Source: a virus. From it: a DNA stretch of 64,000 nucleotides. The notes below the pieces were generated by a model, which was given only the letters and a program-made list of their open reading frames with translations, was not told the origin of the DNA and searched no databases. Positions 11,482 to 23,511 of this stretch are shown piece by piece. The stretch is from positions 1 through 64,000 of IMG/VR virus record IMGVR_UViG_3300035162_002243. The stretch is one strand, 5' to 3'. How positions within the stretch are numbered: the stretch's first letter is position 1; every line of letters starts with the position of its first letter. The position numbers and the translations under genes are program-made.

Positions 11482-12164
11482 TTAAACTTTTTCTTCCTGT
11501 GAAATATTTTTGAGTACGCATCACTTAGATAAAACTTTAATGCACTATCTCGCTTGATGCCTTCTTCGTTAATCTCAGTTTCCATTTCCCAGTCTTCTCT
11601 CTTGAACGGAATGATTTGTGCAAGTGGCTCGCCGGGTGCTAAAATAAAATCGTCTTGCATAGCAACGCCGGGCCAGTTGTTCCAAGGAACATCAATAGTG
11701 TCTGTGTCAATAATAGCTGGATATAATTTAAACCGCTCCTCAAAATGATAAAACGGACTTTGGATAATACAACTATAGCCAGGTGGTGTTTCAATACGCC
11801 ACGGCACACTAAATGTTATATAATCTTTTTTTGTGCCATTCACGGCAACAGGGCATTGCGAATGTTCGTGTCCTTCTTGTGGGCTTTGATTCTGCCACCC
11901 CTGTGGATATGTTCTGCTGAACCCTTCATGCTCTTCGTCACGTTGATACGTTTGAATACGTTGCTCTACAGGGTTGAATATAATGTATCCACTAGTGATA
12001 GTATCGTATACTGGCATACATTTTTTAATTGTAGGAGGACTGTTATGTGGTTGTCCTACCCACGGTGTTGTTTTATTATACCAATCAGGTCTAACTTTGC
12101 TCGCTGGCTGTGGCGGATAGTTGTTGTGTACAGCGGCATCACCACATATGAATTTAATTTTCAT
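11478..12164 (-). CDS. Conserved hypothetical protein (228 aa)
   Basis: 228 aa, unknown. Features: VRPDWYNKTTPW near residue 25, a PVYDTITSGYIIFNP segment, and a SVPWRIETPPGYSCIIQSPFYHFEERF core that is typical of a conserved cupin-like protein of unknown function in phages and proteobacteria. The second half contains DDFILAPGEPLAQIIPFKREDW, again cupin/double-stranded beta-helix-like. Coupled to helicase and nitrilase genes by four-base overlaps. Confidence 0.7.
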   Translation of the reverse strand: MKIKFICGDAAVHNNYPPQPASKVRPDWYNKTTPWVGQPHNSPPTIKKCMPVYDTITSGYIIFNPVEQRIQTYQRDEEHEGFSRTYPQGWQNQSPQEGHEHSQCPVAVNGTKKDYITFSVPWRIETPPGYSCIIQSPFYHFEERFKLYPAIIDTDTIDVPWNNWPGVAMQDDFILAPGEPLAQIIPFKREDWEMETEINEEGIKRDSALKFYLSDAYSKIFHRKKKFK

Positions 12165-13609
12165 TCGTCATCGCCACCTAGGTTGTTAATAAAGCTACGC
12201 AATTTAGTTGAGTCAATCTCTGCACCTTTAACTTTGCCTACCCTGTCACCTTGTTTAGGATCTACGTGTGTAGACTCCATTGAACTACTGCGTTTCAAAT
12301 TACTTACAATACTGTTAGTAGCACTAGCACTACCGTGCCCACTGTTACTATAACCATCATCATCGTCATCATCGTCACAGTCTACAATGCGTAGTGTGTC
12401 TACATCAAAGCCTAGATCAATCTTTTGTCCTACGCCGCCACTGTTACGTGTCTTCATTAACTGTAGTTGATAGCGCCCGCGTTCACGCATTGCTCTGCTT
12501 GTAAAGATACCAAACACGTTGTCTGCTGTTTGTATCTTACTCAAGCCACCACTAATGTGCGAGTGATCAAATTCAATCTCCTCAACAGCACCACGGTTCA
12601 ACTGTGCCGCTGTAACAAACACACAGTTCAATTCCATTGCTAAGTTACGCAACTCTTCTGATACGTACTTGTCTTTGATGTACAAGTTCTCTGCACTAAT
12701 CTTTGCACCGTTGGGCATAAGCAAATCTAAGTAGTCAATTAACAGTACGTCTACTTTGCGTCCTGTTTTAATTTCTAATTCTTTAATATAGCTACGTACA
12801 TCATTAGGTGTTTTGCCACTTGGCATATACTTAACTTGGAATGCACCTGCCTTCTTGCCAATCATCTTAACTTTCATTTCAACATCGTCAATGCTCTTAA
12901 ACACATCTCGACTTGGAATACCAGTTATCATACTGTCAACACGCATACTAACAAGACTTTCACTAAGCTCTAATGTTAGATACAAAACGTTCATACCTTG
13001 TAGTGCCCAGTTAACTCCTAGATTAGCTAAGAACAAACTCTTACCTGCACCCGAACCACCTGCAAAGATATTCAGTTCGCCTCTGTTAAAGCCACCAAAT
13101 AGTTTCTTATCGATAGCAGACCAGCCTGTGCTTACTTGTCCGTTACTGCTCTTAATGCTTTCTAGTCTAGCTCTTGGATCTTTAAAGTAATCTGTACCCA
13201 AGTCTTTTTGTAGACCAATTTGCACAGCCTTCTTAACTAGATCTTCTACTGGTCCATACTCACCTTTCTCAAGCAAGTCTGCACTTTGTAAGATAGCACT
13301 CTCTAATGCCTTATGTCTACTAAATGTTTCAAACTCTGAAAGCAACCAATCATAATGTGTTTCTTGTAAATCACCTGGATGTTTTAAGTCGCTGTGTGTT
13401 GCCGCATTAATCATATCAAATGTAGGCAATGCATTATGCTCAGTCACGTACTCATTAAGAAACTTTGCAGGGTCCTGCAAGCGTCTATCAAATGCCATTG
13501 GATCAAACACTGCCTGACAGCGTACAAAGCTCTCGGCATCTGTCATCATCATTTCAAGATATACTCGTTGTATATCATGCCCATAGTCTGTGTTTTGTCG
13601 TGTGCTCAT
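12161..13609 (-). CDS. gp41: Replicative DNA helicase, gp41/DnaB type (482 aa)
   Basis: Hexameric 5'-3' replicative helicase of the phage replisome, T4 gp41 family. RecA-like motor with Walker A AGGSGAGKSLFLA (about residues 183-194) and Walker B LLIDYLDLL (about 297-305); the N-terminal 150 residues are the DnaB-type helical domain. The C-terminal tail carries seven consecutive Asp and a Ser/Gly-rich linker (encoded at about 12336-12385), which is unusual. I start it at 13609 (MSTRQ): the promoter -10 (13621-13616) lies six bases upstream, so an earlier in-frame ATG at 13645 would be outside the transcript. There is no Shine-Dalgarno, so the mRNA should be leaderless. Confidence 0.95.
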   Translation of the reverse strand: MSTRQNTDYGHDIQRVYLEMMMTDAESFVRCQAVFDPMAFDRRLQDPAKFLNEYVTEHNALPTFDMINAATHSDLKHPGDLQETHYDWLLSEFETFSRHKALESAILQSADLLEKGEYGPVEDLVKKAVQIGLQKDLGTDYFKDPRARLESIKSSNGQVSTGWSAIDKKLFGGFNRGELNIFAGGSGAGKSLFLANLGVNWALQGMNVLYLTLELSESLVSMRVDSMITGIPSRDVFKSIDDVEMKVKMIGKKAGAFQVKYMPSGKTPNDVRSYIKELEIKTGRKVDVLLIDYLDLLMPNGAKISAENLYIKDKYVSEELRNLAMELNCVFVTAAQLNRGAVEEIEFDHSHISGGLSKIQTADNVFGIFTSRAMRERGRYQLQLMKTRNSGGVGQKIDLGFDVDTLRIVDCDDDDDDDGYSNSGHGSASATNSIVSNLKRSSSMESTHVDPKQGDRVGKVKGAEIDSTKLRSFINNLGGDDE

Positions 13610-13615
13610 ATTACT

Positions 13616-13645
13616 ATTATACAGCCTTATACCATTGTTTGTCAA
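13616..13645 (-). promoter_or_regulatory. Early promoter of the gp41 operon (AACACTTGACA class)
   Basis: Minus strand AACACTTGACA with TTGACA at 13645-13640, 18-base spacer, TATAAT at 13621-13616. The TAA stop of the carbamoyltransferase gene is part of the -10 hexamer. Confidence 0.9.
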
Positions 13646-14620: not shown

Positions 14621-14743
14621 CTACTTGTATATAAATGGATCGCGTTTTTGTAATTCTTCAAGTTTCTTTTTTAGTGCTTGTTTGCGCTTCCATTTTGTAT
14701 ACGGAGTTTTAATCCAACTCCAAAAGTTTTTTAAGTAAACCAT
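14621..14743 (-). CDS. Small basic protein (40 aa)
   Basis: A 40-aa frame (MVYLKNFWSWIKTPYTKW...) overlapping the end of the primase gene by 13 bases and ending just before the carbamoyltransferase start, whose ribosome-binding site TAGGAG includes its stop. Very basic and Trp-rich with an amphipathic helix (residues 4-38), so it could associate with membrane or DNA. Support: full occupation of the primase-carbamoyltransferase gap and codon use like its neighbours. Function unknown. Confidence 0.65.
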   Translation of the reverse strand: MVYLKNFWSWIKTPYTKWKRKQALKKKLEELQKRDPFIYK

Positions 14744-15714
14744 TTTTTTGCTCTCAATCTAATTTTTAGTTCGTTTGACTCAGCGGCATTAGCAATGCTA
14801 TACAATGTATATAGTCTACCGTATTTTGCAACTGCGTCACCAATGTCATTAATTGTACTATCCCAGTCTGGTAAACTTACAGACCAACCTAGTTCGATTG
14901 CTTGGTCAATTAATTTACTTCCTGCTTCATCTCTATCAGGTACAACAATAACTTGCTTGCCTACTCTATTAATTAGCATAGCTTGCTGGTCTTTTATTTC
15001 ACTTCCGAGTAATGCACACCCATCTACGTGTATGGCATCCATTGGTCCTTCACACACAATAACAAACGCTTTGTTTTGAGTTTGCTCGTCGAGTCCGTAT
15101 ACATATCCAACTTGTTGTTCACTCATGTACTTGTATTTGCTATCTGGTTGCACTGTTCTGCCAGTCCATCCCACAATACGCTTTTCAAAGTAAAACGGAA
15201 TAATTAGTCTCTCACGGTATGCTAAACTAGGACACCAGTAGTATGATGTGTCATCTAAGTTAAGATTGCGCTCACTCATGTATTCTAGTATTTTTAAACT
15301 ATGCTTATTGAAGTCTGTTATATCTGTAATTTTTATAGCATTGTCTGGCAACGGTACAGTGTTGAACTTAGGCAGTTCGATTACTTGTTGTGTTATTGCA
15401 AAGCCTTCATTCTCTTGCATAACTTGTAATGCAAGTTTATTAATAACATCGTCGGGTGCATTCATCCATTGCAACAGTTTGCGCAATTTGCCGCTGATGT
15501 TACGACCTTGTTGCCAGCTTGCTTTGAATCCACAGTTGAAACAGTGATAGCTCACACCGTCATCTGCATTAGCTATTAGTCCGCCACGCTGTCTAGTGTC
15601 AGCAGTATTGCTATTGTGTACACAACAGGGTGCATTAAACGAAACCCACCCACTAGGAGTTTGTTTGCGCTTTGCTGGCAAGTATGCTGTAAGTGTTTCA
15701 TAGACAATGCTCAT
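14731..15714 (-). CDS. gp61: DNA primase, gp61 type (327 aa)
   Basis: Primase that makes RNA primers for lagging-strand synthesis together with gp41. N-terminal zinc-binding site with cysteine/histidine ligands around residues 30-33 and CFNC at 58-61, then a TOPRIM domain: VIVCEGPMDAI (E221) and VVPDRDEAG (D259, D261). Length (327 aa) agrees with T4 gp61 (342 aa). The start codon is six bases downstream of TATAAT at 15726-15721, with no Shine-Dalgarno, indicating a leaderless mRNA. It heads an operon with the 40-aa gene and carbamoyltransferase. Confidence 0.92.
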   Translation of the reverse strand: MSIVYETLTAYLPAKRKQTPSGWVSFNAPCCVHNSNTADTRQRGGLIANADDGVSYHCFNCGFKASWQQGRNISGKLRKLLQWMNAPDDVINKLALQVMQENEGFAITQQVIELPKFNTVPLPDNAIKITDITDFNKHSLKILEYMSERNLNLDDTSYYWCPSLAYRERLIIPFYFEKRIVGWTGRTVQPDSKYKYMSEQQVGYVYGLDEQTQNKAFVIVCEGPMDAIHVDGCALLGSEIKDQQAMLINRVGKQVIVVPDRDEAGSKLIDQAIELGWSVSLPDWDSTINDIGDAVAKYGRLYTLYSIANAAESNELKIRLRAKKWFT

Positions 15715-15758: not shown

Positions 15759-16526
15759 TTAATTTCTTAGTAGAATTTTATCTACAGTTCCAATGTTGCC
15801 AGAATCATTTGCTTTGACAAACCGTAAGTGATTAAAGATACCATTGAAGTTTACATAATGAGGCGCAGTCGGATTTGATAATGTTTCAGTTGCAATATCA
15901 AACCAACTAGCAGAATCATTAGGTCCTAGTGTTCCTTGGACTTTTACAGTTCCAGTAAACTGAGAAGTGTATATTGCCGCAGTGTGTAACGCCTCGTTAC
16001 TATTAATTTGTGGTTGTGCATCAACTACTGAACTAGTGTTGTTCATCCAAGTAGTTACCGATACAGAGTCAATCGGACCCGGAAAGGCTCTTCCGGACAG
16101 TTCGATAGTGCCGGACATTCCGTACTGCGTATCAGCATAGGTTAGTGCGTTTGTGCCGTCTGCTGTTTTATTAAGATACACTACGTAGCTCATATACTGG
16201 CCGTCTAAGTTGAGGGTGTCGTTATCACTAATGTTGATAGTGAACTGCCCTTTGTATAACGGTGTACTTGTTTCTTTAATAGTTCCTGTATACCGTTTGA
16301 GCAATACCTTATCTTCAGTGAACACTTCAACATACGGTGTGTATGTATTCAGTATCGATACTGGTTTATGATCGCCGTTTTTAATTTCAAAAGAAATGAC
16401 ATTGTCTATTCCTTTAGTTACTTTTATATTTCTCTGGTACAATTTGCTATACTCCACGTTGCCGGAAAAGCCATCTAAGACGACTACCGATTTGTTAACT
16501 GCTAAATATCTTGATACTAGTTGCAT
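15759..16526 (-). CDS. Putative virion protein with beta-structure (255 aa)
   Basis: 255 aa, predicted almost entirely beta strand. N-terminal half resembles a baseplate/tail-fibre attachment domain: an immunoglobulin-like block with VSFEIKNGDHKPVSI near residue 44 and an LKRYTGTIKE...GQFTINISDNDTLNL segment. The C-terminal half ends in VKVQGTLGPNDSASWFDI..., like surface-binding domains. A structural or adhesion role fits, but no family is certain. A late-like AATAAATA element at 16553-16560 and a TTAGGGA ribosome-binding region precede the start. Isolated from the main structural cluster. Confidence 0.6.
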   Translation of the reverse strand: MQLVSRYLAVNKSVVVLDGFSGNVEYSKLYQRNIKVTKGIDNVISFEIKNGDHKPVSILNTYTPYVEVFTEDKVLLKRYTGTIKETSTPLYKGQFTINISDNDTLNLDGQYMSYVVYLNKTADGTNALTYADTQYGMSGTIELSGRAFPGPIDSVSVTTWMNNTSSVVDAQPQINSNEALHTAAIYTSQFTGTVKVQGTLGPNDSASWFDIATETLSNPTAPHYVNFNGIFNHLRFVKANDSGNIGTVDKILLRN

Positions 16527-16552
16527 AATAATTTTATCCCTAACACTAGTTG

Positions 16553-16560
16553 TATTTATT
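16553..16560 (-). promoter_or_regulatory. Late-type promoter element AATAAATA
   Basis: AATAAATA on the minus strand, 26 bases before the start of the 255-aa gene. Confidence 0.55.
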
Positions 16561-16565
16561 GGATT

Positions 16566-16937
16566 ATGTTGAGAAAAGATATAGAAGAAAAGTTTCCGTT
16601 TTTAAGTGTCGTTACATACGGCGGTTTAGAATACATAGGAATCATTAACAATCAAGATGCATACATTACAAGTATGTATATCTACACCGATCTGCGTACC
16701 GACGAAGACCGGTCCGCGTTTGTGGCATTGGGCGAAGCATGGTGGTGGGAGTCAAATAGAATGATTCCAATTAACATATTCCTTAATAGTGATATGCAAC
16801 GTTTTAAGTATGTGATGATGACTATGAATAGTAAAGATGTTAAAGTGTCTTTAGGACCTACAGTTAACCTTAATAAGTTATCTGTCAAACGGGTGAAACG
16901 TAAAAGTGTACAGCTACTTAAGAAACCTTCTAAGTAG
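16566..16937 (+). CDS. Conserved hypothetical protein (123 aa)
   Basis: 123 aa, rightward gene alone among leftward ones. Mixed alpha-beta: LRKDIEEKFPFLSVVTYGGLEYIGIINNQD, then ALGEAWWWESNRMIPINIFL (residues about 60-78), ending in a basic tail (VKRVKRKSVQLLKKPSK). Similar small proteins occur in marine T4-like phages; function unknown. The start at 16566 is inside the divergent promoter region; no strong Shine-Dalgarno. Its 3' end overlaps the converging gene by eight bases. Confidence 0.7.
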   Translation: MLRKDIEEKFPFLSVVTYGGLEYIGIINNQDAYITSMYIYTDLRTDEDRSAFVALGEAWWWESNRMIPINIFLNSDMQRFKYVMMTMNSKDVKVSLGPTVNLNKLSVKRVKRKSVQLLKKPSK

Positions 16938-17493
16938 TTTTAGCTAAACTTTCGCAAATCAAATTCATGTGGACTACGCAAGCCATTGCGTAAGAAACTG
17001 CGTGGGCCTTTTTGAAGTAGTAACCTTCTTCAGGCTTTATCCACACCTCTGAATGAATAGTATTCCAATCGTTGTCTGATAGGTATCTTTTTGCTGGACG
17101 AATAATAGCTAAAGTTGCGGCAAGCTCTTTTACTGAGGTTGGCTTTAGTTTTTTCAATAAATCATTATGTCCATTAAGGTGGAATACTTTATCACTAAAG
17201 TCTTGATGCTCAAGTAATTCCCACATAGGTTGTGTGTTCATTAATTTAGTTAGGTGCGCTTCGTCTCTAACGTCTTTGTATATACTTACATTAAGAAAGT
17301 CTAGTTTAAAGTAACCACGTGCATCTGCTGTCTTATGTTCAACTGTAGCTAAGTTGTCAATAGGGTTGTGCGGAATCTCCGTTGCGTAGACTCCGGTGTT
17401 GTGCTTCTTACCTGTGTTTAACTTTGCCACACGATGTTTTAATTGTGCAAGCACAATAGTTCTATCTGCAAAGTCAATATCAATATCAGGCAT
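16930..17493 (-). CDS. Mini DnaE-like (DNA polymerase III alpha-like) protein (187 aa)
   Basis: Looks like a shrunken bacterial DnaE palm. MPDIDIDFADR (residues 1-11) matches the DnaE motif with the two catalytic aspartates; GYFKLDFLNVSIYKDV (about 60-75) matches the FDFLGL motif with the third; LLKKLKPTSVKELAATLAIIRPAKRYL and the YFKKAHAVSYAMAC segment match later DnaE blocks (LLKxLxP...RPGP; FNKSHAAAYA). DnaE itself is about 1,150 aa, so fingers, PHP, clamp- and DNA-binding parts are missing. A polymerase of its own is unlikely; a regulatory or structural role is possible. Last gene of the operon from the 20977 promoter. Confidence 0.75.
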   Translation of the reverse strand: MPDIDIDFADRTIVLAQLKHRVAKLNTGKKHNTGVYATEIPHNPIDNLATVEHKTADARGYFKLDFLNVSIYKDVRDEAHLTKLMNTQPMWELLEHQDFSDKVFHLNGHNDLLKKLKPTSVKELAATLAIIRPAKRYLSDNDWNTIHSEVWIKPEEGYYFKKAHAVSYAMACVVHMNLICESLAKTT

Positions 17494-17711: not shown

Positions 17712-18224
17712 CTAACTGACATGCCCGGCTTTTGCCATTGCTTCTTTCCAAACTCTTGGAGACACATGCTCGTCCATAGTTATTCCATTTAGGTGATCCA
17801 TTTCGTGCATAAAGCATCTAGCCGAATATCCATCTAGTACAAATGATCTATCCGATCCTTGATGGTCCAACCATCTAGCTGTAATTTTATTCGGTCTAGA
17901 TATTTGTAAATTTATTCCTGGATAACTTAAACACCCTTCAAACATATCAATATCAACAGACTCTTCATGTACAGTGTAACTAGGATTAAGTGCAAGAACT
18001 TGTTGCCTATCACTATTAGTGTCAACTGTGTTTCGAAAAACAAATACTCGCACATTAAGGCCGACTTGGTTAGCCGCCAACCCAATTCCTTGATGAGCAC
18101 TCATAGTTTTCCACATTGACTGGCGCAACTCTACAGCATCGTACTGCGGGTTTTCTAAATCCCATTCTTCAGTAATAGGTGTGTGTAAAATATCATTAGG
18201 ATATGTAATTAATTGTAGTTCCAT
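17712..18224 (-). CDS. def: Peptide deformylase (170 aa)
   Basis: Metal-dependent removal of the formyl group from new bacterial proteins. All three motifs are present: GIGLAANQ (residues 46-53), EGCLSYPG (96-103) and HEMDHLNG (140-147), so the Cys and two His metal ligands and the catalytic Glu are intact. Length is normal (about 165-190 aa). Phage deformylases are known from marine T4-like phages, where they may keep host or phage proteins processed during infection. Two bases separate it from the upstream oxygenase gene. Confidence 0.95.
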   Translation of the reverse strand: MELQLITYPNDILHTPITEEWDLENPQYDAVELRQSMWKTMSAHQGIGLAANQVGLNVRVFVFRNTVDTNSDRQQVLALNPSYTVHEESVDIDMFEGCLSYPGINLQISRPNKITARWLDHQGSDRSFVLDGYSARCFMHEMDHLNGITMDEHVSPRVWKEAMAKAGHVS

Positions 18225-18795: not shown

Positions 18796-19817
18796 AAGTT
18801 CGACTCCTTTATTTTTTGTTCCCAAGACTCTTGATCTTTCCAAGTATAATTGTAAGTTCTTTCAAGTCCGTCTATACTAAACTTATATACATCATTTCTT
18901 TTTAATAGTTCTTGAATTAGAATCTCTTTGTTGTCATATTGTAATTCGGCAACAACTCCATTGTTAAGAGCAAGTGCGGGATCGTCTTTATCAAAGTTGT
19001 TTTCTTTCAACCAAGTAACAAAATTAGGATCATTTAACATACCTCGTGACTCATTAAAAGTAATAGTACCTTCTCCGGTGACATATCTAATTCCTGAAAT
19101 GTTTTCATGGTCGATGTCAGAGTCGTTATCTATATATGCTTCTGCGTGACTTTTTCCTAGTTGAGCATAGTATAACATTATACTACCAAATGGACGTTCT
19201 GAAACAAAGTCTTTATATTCGTCTAAAATTAATTCAGTGCTTACTTTATGCTCACCAATATAATATCCGTCTTTATTAATACCATTTTGGGAAAGGAATA
19301 TCGAAGCGTTATTATTTTTAGATGTTATCTGTTTTATAGAAAATTCTATTTCGTGACAGAAGTTATTAAGCATCCTAATTGCAAATTTTGTTTCATGTTT
19401 AAGATCTAACTTCCACCACTTAGAATGATTCCAACTTTGTCCTATAAGTAATTCAAAATGATGATGAACTTTATTCATTAATTCGTCTTGTGTGTTACTA
19501 TTTTGTAATGCTTCAACAGTAAAGTTTAAATCTATTTTAGGATATCCTCTTGTTGGCATTTCTTTATTTACAACAGAAATATAGTAATTTAATCTATCAC
19601 ATAGAAAATTAAGATTTCTAGGATAGTCCGATTCCCATTCCGACTGCCAGCCGTGTAAGCAATAAGTTTTTTCTATTGGATGATCGCTTTCAATAAAGTT
19701 TTTTATAAAATGATTTTTCCAAGCACTACCTAGTGCATTATCCTTAATCTTATAGTTAAGATCATAGTTGTCAAATTCTTTGTTTATATCTCTTAAGGTA
19801 ATAACTAAGTCATTCAT
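18792..19817 (-). CDS. Conserved hypothetical protein (341 aa)
   Basis: 341 aa, unknown function. No nucleotide-binding motif. Distinct segments: CLHGWQSEWESDYPRNLNFLCDRLN near residue 53, KVHHHFELLIGQSW (about 117) and GSIMLYYAQLGKSHAEAY (about 211). The high aromatic content and the HHHFE region suggest a folded enzyme or binding protein rather than a structural repeat. Both this gene and the one before end in ESNL, with the sequence AAGGAGTCxAACTTATGA serving as ribosome-binding site, stop and next start at once. Confidence 0.65.
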   Translation of the reverse strand: MNDLVITLRDINKEFDNYDLNYKIKDNALGSAWKNHFIKNFIESDHPIEKTYCLHGWQSEWESDYPRNLNFLCDRLNYYISVVNKEMPTRGYPKIDLNFTVEALQNSNTQDELMNKVHHHFELLIGQSWNHSKWWKLDLKHETKFAIRMLNNFCHEIEFSIKQITSKNNNASIFLSQNGINKDGYYIGEHKVSTELILDEYKDFVSERPFGSIMLYYAQLGKSHAEAYIDNDSDIDHENISGIRYVTGEGTITFNESRGMLNDPNFVTWLKENNFDKDDPALALNNGVVAELQYDNKEILIQELLKRNDVYKFSIDGLERTYNYTWKDQESWEQKIKESNL

Positions 19818-20500
19818 AAGTTTGACTCCTTTGCAACTTGTTTAATAACTTCGACATCGCCCGGTTGTCTTCTAAATCTTAGTGCCCAATGCTTGGGATC
19901 AAGTACCTCATATACAAAGCCTAGTTGCTCGTCATTAAACTTGCCTAACATTTCTTTTCCGCTTTTACAATTTAATAGTAACCAAGGACTTACCTTGCCG
20001 TCTTTAACATCACGTGTTACTCTGTTTAAACTTGCATATCTAAAATAGTCATTCCACGGAGAGCTAATGTCCTCGCTCCATTCCATCATAGTTTCTATTG
20101 AACGCTCAATAGCAGTTTCCATACTTTCTTTTAAAATTAATTGGTTAACATATTTTTCATACAGTTCATCGCGGCACCAGTGATCTAATTTAACTCCACT
20201 GCATACTACCCAGTCGATATACTTTTCTGTATACAAAGGTTTTACATTACTAATAAAACTTCCAAACTTAACAAATGCATTATAGTATGGGCTGTTACAA
20301 AACTGTGCATATGTTTTCTCAGTTTTGTTTCCTGCACTTAACTTATAAAATCTACCAAACGAATAAAACCCCAACTGTACACGCTTCTCATTCTTTTGCA
20401 ATGCACGTCTTTTCTTTTCGCACATATGTACAATGAGTGTTTTCTCTTTGGTGTAACTAGTTCCGCAGTATTCACACTTGTATGGTTTAGATGTTGACAT
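19814..20500 (-). CDS. C2H2 zinc-finger protein (228 aa)
   Basis: The N-terminus contains CEYCGTSYTKEKTLIVHMC (residues about 9-27), a C-x2-C...H-x-C type zinc finger, followed by about 200 residues without a named domain (YSFGRFYKLSAGNKTEKTYAQF, WVVCSGVKLDHWC). Such proteins occur in marine T4-like phages, function unknown; binding of nucleic acid is plausible. I start it at 20500 (MSTSKPYKC), since the longer frame overlaps the preceding gene. The end overlaps the next start (ATGA). Confidence 0.65.
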   Translation of the reverse strand: MSTSKPYKCEYCGTSYTKEKTLIVHMCEKKRRALQKNEKRVQLGFYSFGRFYKLSAGNKTEKTYAQFCNSPYYNAFVKFGSFISNVKPLYTEKYIDWVVCSGVKLDHWCRDELYEKYVNQLILKESMETAIERSIETMMEWSEDISSPWNDYFRYASLNRVTRDVKDGKVSPWLLLNCKSGKEMLGKFNDEQLGFVYEVLDPKHWALRFRRQPGDVEVIKQVAKESNL

Positions 20501-20942
20501 CTTTTTTATCGATCCCATAGTCTGCGGCAAGCGCGAAGATTTCTTTTTTTGTAGATATTCTAGCAAGTAATTCCACCTCATCTGTTTTCATATTCGGAAA
20601 CATCTTCATTAAGTACTTTACACTCTTGGAGTTATCGCCTGTTTTCTTTTTGTATCCAATCCACTCGTGATACATAATATTTTTAGTGTTGCCGCTCAAA
20701 CAAAGCAACTGCCATAATAATTTTTTATGTTTTTGTAATGTGTAGAAGTGTTTGTTGTAGTATTCGTTTGTTTTAAATACTGCAAGTTCTTGTGAATCTC
20801 TATTACTCTTTACACTGCTAACATATCTGTTAAGCAAGAAGAAACTAACTTGTTTGCGTTCTTCATCAGATAGTTCGTCCCAAACTTCTAAGGCGCCCAT
20901 GTCAATTGCCGCAAGTATATCTTTAATTGGAAGTTTACTCAT
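20487..20942 (-). CDS. Conserved hypothetical protein (151 aa)
   Basis: 151 aa, alpha-helical. N-terminal pattern MSKLPIKDILAAIDMGALEVWDELSDEERKQVSFFLLNRYVSSV then TNEYYNKHFYTLQKHKKLLWQLLCL is shared with a family in marine T4-like phages. Given its place at the head of an operon it might be a replication accessory, for instance a clamp-loader small subunit (gp62-like), but no motif proves it. Its promoter at 20977-21005 gives a 28-base leader with GGTGG before the ATG. Confidence 0.6.
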   Translation of the reverse strand: MSKLPIKDILAAIDMGALEVWDELSDEERKQVSFFLLNRYVSSVKSNRDSQELAVFKTNEYYNKHFYTLQKHKKLLWQLLCLSGNTKNIMYHEWIGYKKKTGDNSKSVKYLMKMFPNMKTDEVELLARISTKKEIFALAADYGIDKKDVNI

Positions 20943-21040: not shown

Positions 21041-21715
21041 TTAAGTTCGCTCATTCCATGCCTTTAAGTCTTCAGGTGAATTAATTTCAATGCCATTAAA
21101 TTCTACACAACTGCAACCTATATCCCAACCAGCTTTAAGCCAACGCAACTGTTCTAGTTTTTCAACCTGTTCTTCTTGTGTAACTTCCATGCCTCTATAG
21201 AATAGTAACGGATTGCGTTTGTATCCGTAAACTCCTAAATGCCAATGTCCGTATCCAGTTAGTCCTCTACCAAACCACAGAGCTTTGTCACCAGCACGTA
21301 CCATCTTAACCGAGTTAGGATCGTCTTGCATTGCTTTAGGCATTTCTGCGTATACTGTGCTTATTTGATAATACTTGAGCCATTCTACACAACGTTCAAT
21401 CATTTGTAGTGTTACGTCAGGCATATCGCCTTGTACATTAATAAATTGATCGTACTCATTAAAGAAGTCGTTCTGTATTGCGCCTGCAACACGCTCTGTG
21501 CCGTTGTCGTACTCTTTTTGGTCAATCCAACATTTATCCGAACCAAACAAATTAAAGATACGCATGTCATCAGTAAGCACATATGTTGGTATCTTAGACG
21601 CAACACAAGCGTCATACACACGTTTAATCATAGGAACGCCATCTAACATAGCTAGTGGCTTTCCAGGAAAGCGTGTGCTTGCATACCTAGCAGGTATAAG
21701 GATAGCAGTATTCAT
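21041..21715 (-). CDS. kdsB: CMP-Kdo synthetase (3-deoxy-manno-octulosonate cytidylyltransferase, 224 aa)
   Basis: Activates Kdo with CTP to CMP-Kdo, donor for lipopolysaccharide core and capsule. Signatures: IPARYASTRFPGKPL (residues 7-21, CTP-binding loop), NGTERVA (about 71-77), NVQGDMP (metal/CTP site) and a C-terminal EKLEQLRWL. 224 aa compared with about 245 usual. Overlaps hemE by four bases (ATGA). The kdsA gene sits two genes upstream, so the phage supplies two consecutive-pathway enzymes of Kdo activation; the phosphatase KdsC and the isomerase KdsD are not seen in the window. Confidence 0.92.
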   Translation of the reverse strand: MNTAILIPARYASTRFPGKPLAMLDGVPMIKRVYDACVASKIPTYVLTDDMRIFNLFGSDKCWIDQKEYDNGTERVAGAIQNDFFNEYDQFINVQGDMPDVTLQMIERCVEWLKYYQISTVYAEMPKAMQDDPNSVKMVRAGDKALWFGRGLTGYGHWHLGVYGYKRNPLLFYRGMEVTQEEQVEKLEQLRWLKAGWDIGCSCVEFNGIEINSPEDLKAWNERT

Positions 21716-22689
21716 TTAAATCGCTCCCTTACCATATCTACAAACAGCTTTACATTTTCTTCAGGTGTAGTTTTTTGGATGCCGTGACCAAGTCCACATA
21801 TCCATCCTGTACGATCAACAGTTTCCATTTTATCTAAAAACAAATTAATTTCTTTCCTGCATTCCATAGTCGATGATAGTAGCATTAACTTTTCATCAAA
21901 GTTGCCCTGTACAAATCCAGTTGTGTACTTTTTCATAGTTTTTGTAATATCAACTCCGCTATCAATGCCAATTCCCTTCCATTCCATTTTAAGTAAAGAA
22001 GGCATACATTTAGGATTTAAATGCTGTGTATAATATCCAACGTTGGCCATTATCATAGACTGTAATAATTCTTTGTAATGATCTTTAAAGAACCCTTCAC
22101 TCATATTACCTACACCGCTATCAAGTATCATAACTTTTTCAGCGCCTGCTCGTAACTGTAAATGTATATTACGGTTCAGCAACGGAATAATAACTTCACG
22201 CAAGTATTCTACTTTAAACTTAGTACTTGTTTTTTGTTTACCAGTTGCATAATTTAATAGTGTCCACGGACCGCCTACAAATCCAATAAGACTTTTGTTA
22301 GAAGGCAACATTTCTTTTGTTGCAGTAATAGCACGACTTTGAAAATCCATATGTTCAATTGCGGCTTCTACATCCATGTGATTTTTATAATTCTCTTCTG
22401 TAAGTAGCCATTCAAACTTTGGACCCGGGTCAAACTTTAGAGGAATACCTAATCCTTCAATAGGAAAAAGTATGTCACTAAAAAGTATTGCAATGTCAAA
22501 ATCAAATTGGTTAATTGGTAGCATTGCAACCTCTGCGGCTACTTTAGGCAACTTACACATTTGTTCAAATGTAAAATTTTGCTTTAGTTCCATGTAACCT
22601 TTTTGATATCGTCCGGCCTGCCGCATCATCCAAATTGGAGGAGTTGGCTGTTCTACTCTGTTACAAGCATTTTCAAATAGTTTATTCAT
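21712..22689 (-). CDS. hemE: Uroporphyrinogen decarboxylase-like protein (325 aa)
   Basis: Matches HemE, which decarboxylates uroporphyrinogen III to coproporphyrinogen III in haem and chlorophyll synthesis. Signatures: PIWMMRQAGRYQ (residues 18-29, both substrate-binding Arg), FDIAILFSDIL (about 63-73, catalytic Asp), FVGGPWTLLNYATG (the conserved Tyr) and the C-terminal GLGHGIQKTTPEENV (conserved His). Length 325 aa compared with about 350. Full motif set argues for an active enzyme. It lies between kdsB and kdsA with short overlaps. Haem enzymes are rare in phages; the benefit is unclear. Confidence 0.88.
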   Translation of the reverse strand: MNKLFENACNRVEQPTPPIWMMRQAGRYQKGYMELKQNFTFEQMCKLPKVAAEVAMLPINQFDFDIAILFSDILFPIEGLGIPLKFDPGPKFEWLLTEENYKNHMDVEAAIEHMDFQSRAITATKEMLPSNKSLIGFVGGPWTLLNYATGKQKTSTKFKVEYLREVIIPLLNRNIHLQLRAGAEKVMILDSGVGNMSEGFFKDHYKELLQSMIMANVGYYTQHLNPKCMPSLLKMEWKGIGIDSGVDITKTMKKYTTGFVQGNFDEKLMLLSSTMECRKEINLFLDKMETVDRTGWICGLGHGIQKTTPEENVKLFVDMVRERFK

Positions 22690-23461
22690 ATTGATATTTA
22701 ACTATATCTGCTACTACTTTTTCAAAGTCATCTAGTCGTAACATGTTAGGTCCGTCACTTGGTGCATTGTCCGGGTTAGGGTGTACTTCTAGAAAGAAAT
22801 TCCTAATACCCAAAGCACTACCTGCGCGACATAGACCAGGAACGTAATCCCTATTGCCACCGCTACTGCTTCCGTTGCCGCCAGGTTTCTGTACGCTGTG
22901 TGTGGCATCAAGTACAACAGGATAATCATAATTATTAAGCATGTAGTCCAAGCCAGTAAAATCAACGACCAAAGTATTATATCCAAAACTAGTTCCTCTC
23001 TCGGTTATCCAAACCTCTTTAGCACCTTCTGTCTTAGTTAATATACCCTTCATATCCCACGGTGCAAGGAACTGTCCTTTTTTAATATTAACAATCTTAT
23101 CTGTTTCACAAGCCGCTTGTAACAAGTCAGTTTGTCTACAAAGGAATGCAGGAATTTGTAATACATCTACACACTCATTAAAGTACGTTGTGATCATTTC
23201 AATTTGATCAATATCGTGTACATCTGTTAGTGTTTTAACACCATGCACTTCTTTAATTAGCTTAAAGTCATTTAGAGTGTTAGCAAGTCCTACACCTCGT
23301 TTATTACCTAGGCTAGAACGATTTGCTTTATCGAAACTTGCTTTAAAGATATATTCTACACCGTGTTTGTCGCATATTGCTTTACACTTCTCTGCAATAT
23401 GTGATGACTGACTTAATGACTCATGCTGGCACGGTCCTGCTATAATTCTCAGTTGATACAT
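22682..23461 (-). CDS. kdsA: Kdo-8-phosphate synthase (259 aa)
   Basis: Condenses phosphoenolpyruvate with arabinose-5-phosphate to Kdo-8-phosphate. Signatures: AGPCQHES (residues 8-15), KASFDKANRSS (40-50), TDVHDIDQ, DVLQIPAFLCRQTDLL, KKGQFLAPWDM, TERGTSFGYNTLVVD, DATHSVQKPGG and EVHPNPDNAPSDGPNML: the complete family set. 259 aa is slightly short of the usual 280. The start at 23461 follows AAAGGAAAAACAA; a longer frame to 23506 runs through a hairpin region and lacks a ribosome-binding site. Overlaps hemE by eight bases. Confidence 0.95.
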   Translation of the reverse strand: MYQLRIIAGPCQHESLSQSSHIAEKCKAICDKHGVEYIFKASFDKANRSSLGNKRGVGLANTLNDFKLIKEVHGVKTLTDVHDIDQIEMITTYFNECVDVLQIPAFLCRQTDLLQAACETDKIVNIKKGQFLAPWDMKGILTKTEGAKEVWITERGTSFGYNTLVVDFTGLDYMLNNYDYPVVLDATHSVQKPGGNGSSSGGNRDYVPGLCRAGSALGIRNFFLEVHPNPDNAPSDGPNMLRLDDFEKVVADIVKYQYE

Positions 23462-23488
23462 TTGTTTTTCCTTTATAAGAAGCAGTGG

Positions 23489-23511
23489 CGAGTGTGGCAT
23501 TGCCACACTCG
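23489..23511. repeat. Perfect 11-bp inverted repeat upstream of kdsA
   Basis: CGAGTGTGGCA (23489-23499) and TGCCACACTCG (23501-23511) separated by one base. It would form a very stable hairpin in the mRNA between the H1-like gene and kdsA. No T-run follows on either strand, so it is more likely an mRNA-processing or attenuation element than a terminator. Confidence 0.6.

Follow-up and report, generated by a model that had tools for sequence, protein, structure and literature searches.

A probable C-terminal subunit of a split, minimal DNA polymerase III alpha encoded on a fragment of an uncultured phage

The window analyzed here is a stretch of 64,000 nucleotides (positions 1 to 64,000) of the IMG/VR virus record IMGVR_UViG_3300035162_002243, which is itself 66,300 bases long and classed as linear. 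An open reading frame (ORF) of 187 amino acids (aa) lies at 16930-17493 on the minus strand, where a first-pass annotation of the bare sequence had placed it, with its ATG at 17493-17491 and its stop codon at 16932-16930. The protein begins with MPDIDIDF, and the stop codon of the upstream ORF immediately precedes the ATG. The motifs that had been read as following the DnaE order were all found: PDIDIDF (residues 2-8), FKLDFL (62-67), LLKKLKP with RPAKRYL, and FKKAHAVSYA (160-169). All three catalytic aspartates are present, as D3, D5 and D65.

The end of this gene overlaps by 8 bp with a convergent gene on the plus strand (16521-16937; phrog_11637, 4e-32), which has a TTG start in the ORF list, a probable ATG start at 16566, and no Pfam match. 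It is followed, on the minus strand, by genes for a probable virion structural protein (15759-16526; phrog_14467, 4e-9, and synteny), a T4 gp61-like DNA primase (14731-15714; phrog_47, 1e-37) and a DnaB/gp41-like replicative helicase (12161-13645; phrog_19, 1.5e-75). This order matches a conserved block in the relatives, with the addition of a NodU-type carbamoyltransferase gene (PF02543; 13617-14609, minus strand) inserted between primase and helicase. All ten annotated relatives have an opposite-strand gene at or beside the place of phrog_11637, and in nine of them the polymerase gene, the convergent gene and a structural or hypothetical gene are followed by primase and helicase, or by unnamed genes of the same size. 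The Phosso block has one additional gene, and the helicase or the primase is unnamed in the blocks of PA5oct, Atu_ph07, SCTP-2 and Vibrio 2.275. In XacN1, the convergent gene is one gene farther away, and a nucleotide kinase gene and a Pol III epsilon gene come after it. The CM1 record carries no annotation. Upstream of the polymerase gene, also on the minus strand, are a peptide deformylase gene (17712-18224; PF01327, 4e-38) and, a few genes away, one for a phrog_11058 protein (19814-20581) with a weak, sub-threshold match to a C2H2 zinc finger.

Residues 3-182 of the 187-aa protein, hereafter the C-half, matched the PHROGs family phrog_11778, named "DNA polymerase" (4e-59). The Pfam model PF17657 gave an E-value of 0.0032, under its cut-off, TIGR00594 an E-value of 0.00095 with 17.3 bits (cut-off 434), and phmmer against the PDB an E-value of 0.024. 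The profile comparison with DnaE that the first-pass annotation had proposed was performed with hhalign. A C-half profile matched seven DnaE sequences with an E-value of 7.7e-8 and a probability of 94.5%, and the single E. coli sequence with an E-value of 0.0027 and a probability of 11%. Both alignments start only at the H31/Y36 region, and the DxD segment was therefore placed by motif and structure. The resemblance to DnaE exceeds chance, and a fortuitous likeness of motifs was rejected by the comparison with the seven DnaE together with the structural alignment.

An AlphaFold2 model of the C-half, built from 81 sequences, had a pLDDT of 93.2 and a pTM of 0.80. It aligned with the Pol III alpha of Taq (3e0d; Z 9.8, rmsd 3.6, 184 of 187 residues, chain positions 461-841) and of E. 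coli (2hnh; Z 8.9, 179 residues, positions 401-784), the structural match taking in residues 2-186 of the 187. The 14 top structural rows were all bacterial Pol III alpha or PolC, and the next, unrelated fold had a Z of 3.2, in a ranking (VIA-align) that re-orders Foldseek matches only and could miss folds outside the Foldseek list. Foldseek alone gave weak E-values for this model and for that of the second protein described below (best about 3e-3), so the structural case rests on the re-examination by the aligner and on the sequence profiles. D3/D5 and D65 lie on or beside two predicted strands (4-8 and 63-68) and are in register with their Pol III alpha counterparts. Structure prediction, one of the checks proposed in the first-pass annotation, did not give the palm-less fold that would have refuted the reading; the model keeps the palm of Pol III alpha, starting at the catalytic DxD strand, together with the base of the fingers. 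Homology to this palm, with all catalytic aspartates, is supported. Pol III also needs, for its palm, the helix with G-R-G-S that comes ahead of the DxD strand. This opening part is absent from the protein, as from all relatives examined, so that the protein by itself is not a whole palm.

The catalytic residues were invariant among C-half relatives. D3, D5, D7, H31, G34, P41, K63, D65, L67, R132, P133 and H164 never varied in the 160 distinct homologues among the IMG/VR matches listed, a set retrieved with peptides that held the DxD motif in one of six patterns in one scan and one of two in another, and extracted with a script that demanded D.D.D, which no locus failed. The catalytic DxD (D3 and D5; E. 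coli D401 and D403) is encoded at 17479-17487, K63-x-D65 with the third catalytic Asp (E. coli K553 and D555) at 17299-17307, and H31, the counterpart of E. coli H511 in a KHNTGV/KHAGGV alignment, at 17401-17403, all on the minus strand. The residues D401, D403, D405, H511, K553, D555 and H760, which correspond to D3, D5, D7, H31, K63, D65 and H164, were invariant in the seven DnaE. Of the two remaining positions of interest, also on the minus strand, R132 (17098-17100) is the counterpart of E. coli R639 and Mycobacterium tuberculosis (Mtb) DnaE1 R667, and H164 (17002-17004) that of E. coli H760 and Mtb H787. Arg667, His787 and Gln638 of Mtb DnaE1 are described, in the consulted part of PMC8922275, as contacting an inhibitor that occupies the position of the nascent base pair; by alignment, their C-half counterparts are R132, H164 and H105.

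The C-half is under purifying selection, as revealed by a dN/dS of 0.08 against three relatives (dS was saturated for five others tried) and by a median of 0.10 and a maximum of 0.14 in 11 pairs of close relatives. A pseudogene was rejected on these values. Matches were found in 63 of 50,697 phage records, with identities under 60% and a query coverage of at least 80% throughout. The carriers include the jumbo phages PA5oct, RaK2, 121Q, GAP32, Atu_ph07, SCTP-2 and XacN1. At least 551 stretches in IMG/VR encode a relative.

Much of a bacterial DnaE is gone. As in the DnaE of E. coli and Taq (3e0d/2hpi), the palm has the DxD and the third Asp, and K553, H511, R639-P640 and F756/H760 have counterparts in the C-half. 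In bacterial DnaE, a single chain of about 1160 aa also includes PHP, thumb, complete fingers, OB and clamp/tau regions; in the phages these other parts are gone and the palm is divided in two. The thumb region is cut to a short loop (residues 8-31, versus E. coli 406-510), as is the index finger (residues 139-158); only about 20-25 residues separate RPAK from FKKAH. T680, E688, Q689, R709 and G423, invariant in the seven DnaE, have no counterpart in these loops. The match ends at E. coli 784, so that the OB fold, the internal beta-clamp motif (QADMF at 920) and the tau-binding region lie outside it. No Pfam PHP match was found in the window protein. The first-pass annotation had counted the fingers among the missing domains; their base is partly kept, as residues 103-135 match the finger model.

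The missing part of the palm is encoded elsewhere in related phages. PF07733, run against the records of 14 relatives, picked out open frames of some 170-320 aa in 12 of them, both misses being fragments. These frames matched only about positions 13-125 of the profile; the C-half of one record (G002) weakly matched positions 96-196. This second protein, the N-half (phrog_11127), is about 180 aa long, and its gene is distant from that of the C-half. It contains the G-S motif that is absent from the chain of the window protein, and its C-termini read ...GVGRGSSVASYVLYLIGVHKINSIQYGLDWREFLR or similar. In the profile comparison of the N-half with DnaE (E-value 9.5e-11), the match ran to E. coli N393, where the phage protein ends. 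One N-half was modeled with AlphaFold2 (pLDDT 90.7); the model aligned with E. coli 276-393 at Z 9.3 and with Taq 294-455 at Z 7.6, the best row having a Z of 10.0 and the next unrelated one 2.2. GRGS was invariant in all 130 distinct N-halves among the matches listed, GRGSS being part of one of the two peptide patterns used for their retrieval and G.GR[GA][SC] being demanded at their extraction. DnaE R390 is replaced by Glu in the N-halves, and R396 falls in the lost linker. A PHP-bearing partner was considered and rejected, as PHP exceeded its cut-off in none of the 14 relatives' records, with two weak, sub-threshold matches. About 73 N-terminal residues without an assigned fold stand in place of the DnaE PHP domain in one N-half protein (L107, 5998-6552; residues 1-73).

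The two proteins tile a single Pol III alpha. On E. coli 2hnh, the N-half covers 276-393 and the C-half 401-784, with a gap of seven residues and zero overlap. The same joint was seen in the gene ends. Of 172 N-half loci among the matches listed, 167 were extracted, and in these the protein stops 1-3 aa past EF[FL]; the extraction also demanded a terminal EF motif and dropped five loci (L283, L303, L334, L336 and L348). C-halves start 1-16 aa ahead of the first catalytic Asp in 171 loci among the matches listed, and in 125 of these the Asp is the third residue (M-P-D type). The open frame ahead of this Asp never exceeds 47 residues in the 171 loci, and most of it is untranslated given the start codons. 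The C-half as a longer gene clipped by a wrong start was rejected on the shortness of these upstream frames. As N-halves have about 180 aa, the 171-locus set contains no fused form.

The two halves occur together. N-half matches were found in 63 of the 50,697 phage records, the same number as for the C-half. When the lists were compared, on 60 of the 63 records per half, 59 of the 60 C-half accessions occurred among the 60 N-half accessions, and these phage-record counts are independent of the retrieval patterns. The C-half accession without an N-half was PP728206.1, a 109-kb record, and OP752703.1 was in the N-half list only. Among 20 long IMG/VR contigs, the C-half was detected in 13, the N-half in 12 and both in five, where they were 121-281 kb apart. 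These five were among the six contigs of at least 236 kb; the sixth, G001, also had no family B polymerase and therefore looks incomplete. The C-half occurred alone in eight and the N-half alone in seven of the 20 contigs, all of which, except G001, were shorter than 225 kb. A family B polymerase was present in 12 of the 14 relatives' records. Neither was it found on the 66.3-kb fragment to which the window belongs, nor was the N-half, as searched with Pfam and with a family profile that matched 12 of 20 other contigs and was run on this record without a positive control in the same search.

Near the N-half, too, replication genes were found. A named clamp loader is encoded close to it in RaK2, Atu_ph07 and XacN1, and an AAA-ATPase in Phosso; the corresponding PA5oct gene is unnamed. 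The two halves of PA5oct are EST35_0220 and EST35_0288. In a marine contig (L106), the N-half is followed by genes for an exonuclease of the RNase T type (PF16473, PF00929) and for an AAA protein of the clamp-loader type.

A similar system has been described. The consulted text of Iyer et al. 2021 (PMC7824862) reports, for group 2.2 jumbo phages, a "split minimal Pol III alpha" that accompanies a family B polymerase, and proposes that the halves reconstitute an active enzyme. In the relatives examined here, the arrangement has the same two stand-alone proteins from distant genes, in a clade with family B polymerase, primase, helicase and clamp loader. The stand-alone C-terminal part, which binds Mg2+ and template in that description, is present in the window. 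The separate N-terminal, NTP-binding part from a distant gene was seen in relatives and is absent from the 66.3-kb fragment. Unlike the group described, the window represents a marine uncultured member on a fragment that yielded no partner gene and no family B polymerase; it is called marine because its nearest relatives were judged to be marine-type metagenome contigs. By sequence, the window protein is a new, marine member of the split Pol III alpha described in 2021. New here are the precise position of the joint, the tiling on the structure, the counts of co-occurrence, the neighborhoods of both genes (primase-helicase for one half, clamp loader for the other) and the list of lost parts; the precise joint, AlphaFold2 tiling and counts in current records are absent from the text of PMC7824862 as consulted. 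Our literature search, which had most subscription journals and bioRxiv outside its scope, found no experimental test of the split enzyme, and PMC7824862 was the only paper found to address it. In their consulted parts, the CBB genome paper (PMC5259590) mentions only a truncated alpha-like protein, and the Atu_ph07 paper (PMC6102473) a Pol III alpha, gp316. The latter was identified here as the N-half. The N-half query also matched the one-chain DnaE of Gordonia phage Lambo, Streptomyces phage BillNye, Lactobacillus phage ATCCB, Enterococcus phage VPE25 and Bacillus phage FADO, which, unlike the two-gene split, are single ORFs of about 1090-1290 aa.

In our view, the window protein is probably the C-terminal chain of a minimal, two-subunit DNA polymerase of the C family (DnaE type) that belongs to T4-like jumbo phages. 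That the two proteins are halves of one functional unit is the safer part of this reading, and we hold it to be highly likely. The C-half would supply the metal-binding strands of the palm (D3, D5 and D65), K63, and R132 and H164 facing the base pair. The second protein, of about 180 aa and encoded near the clamp loader, would bring the GRGS helix of the same palm and end at the equivalent of E. coli N393. In the related giant phages this other half comes from a gene far away, so that the two proteins probably join into one very small polymerase, associating non-covalently at the N393 junction to form one nucleotidyltransferase active site. The phage of the window would then carry the partner gene as well. 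The gene order suggests that the complex acts at the replication fork of the phage, alongside its primase-helicase, its clamp loader and its family B polymerase. Because the processivity and proofreading parts of Pol III are absent, short or specialized synthesis (primer extension, gap filling, repair or bypass) seems the most likely task. For templated DNA synthesis by the two-half unit, we see a chance that approaches even.

The closest competitor is that the halves assemble as a reduced nucleotidyltransferase, that is, a terminal transferase, a nucleotide-modifying enzyme or a priming aid, in which templated polymerization has been lost; we regard it as unlikely, at roughly one chance in several. 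Retention of the metal ligands, of the GS motif and of the residues that face the base pair, with thumb and index finger cut to short loops, is a pattern that fits catalysis with weak template binding. With the index-finger residues, G423, R390 and R396 missing or replaced, templated selection of dNTPs could be lost. On the other hand, the counterparts of Mtb R667 and H787, which by the consulted part of PMC8922275 contact an inhibitor at the site of the nascent base pair, are invariant and the genes of both halves adjoin replication genes, which together argue for a templated reaction. A minimal nucleotidyltransferase was also among the suggestions of the first-pass annotation. It comes close, but the 187-aa protein cannot be one on its own, because the GS part of the active site sits in the second protein.

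A non-catalytic decoy or regulator, which would mimic the host Pol III alpha and titrate its partners or primer ends, is improbable. The window protein is small and derived from DnaE, and the related phages own a family B polymerase, as would suit such a role. The surfaces of Pol III alpha for epsilon, beta and tau, however, are in domains outside the range of the palm match, and these regions are absent here, as is PHP above cut-off from all 14 records. A decoy needs no catalytic invariance, yet the active-site residues were invariant in 160 of 160 distinct sequences among the matches listed, and the second, exactly complementary gene would be left unexplained. The invariance and the absence of host-binding domains likewise disfavor an inert, exapted palm, which had been suggested along with the decoy.

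Still less probable is a phage dnaE gene that has been truncated and is decaying. The length of 187 aa, versus 1160 aa for DnaE, and the word "truncated" for the N-half in the consulted part of the CBB paper (PMC5259590) would agree with it, but a dN/dS of about 0.08 to 0.14 and the fact that length, start and end are much alike across many phages speak against it.

The two-chain polymerase is also to be set against a divided DnaE of another kind. Cyanobacterial DnaE is encoded by two distant genes, with intein halves at the split, which falls near the FNKSH motif. The least probable reading, hardly to be credited, is that the phage halves are joined in the same way by protein trans-splicing, since the two-gene arrangement is matched, but the phage joint is at PDIDIDF, the halves in the loci extracted carry no extra sequence at either end, and the N-half stop 1-3 aa past EF[FL] and the at most 47 mostly untranslated residues before the first Asp of the C-half bound the joint so closely that there is no room for intein pieces.

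If the two-chain polymerase is active, two proteins of fewer than 190 residues, with genes more than 100 kb apart, would share one active site and form the smallest C-family polymerase known to us. It would be a dedicated second replisome polymerase without PHP, full thumb, index finger and clamp-binding region, beside a family B polymerase. We advance this tentatively, at somewhat less than an even chance. Such an enzyme may resemble a pre-fusion ancestor of bacterial Pol III, as suggested in the consulted text of Iyer et al. (PMC7824862). An active complex would be a natural case of two genes sharing the active site of one polymerase, would offer a minimal C-family core for studies of mechanism, and would test which parts of Pol III are required for the chemistry. 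It would also have a bearing on the origin of Pol III and on the retention, in large T4-like phages, of a polymerase of bacterial type beside a family B enzyme of their own.

Farther upstream in the window, three further genes were found on the minus strand. A gene for HemE, uroporphyrinogen decarboxylase of the haem pathway (21712-22689; PF01208, 2.4e-61), was detected in none of the 12 relatives searched for it. It is flanked by genes for a cytidylyltransferase that is KdsB-like by sequence (21041-21715; PF02348) and for a protein of the DAHP/KDO8P-synthase family (22682-23506; PF00793). Judging from these family assignments, the products of the two flanking genes could together make CMP-KDO, a precursor of a lipopolysaccharide sugar.
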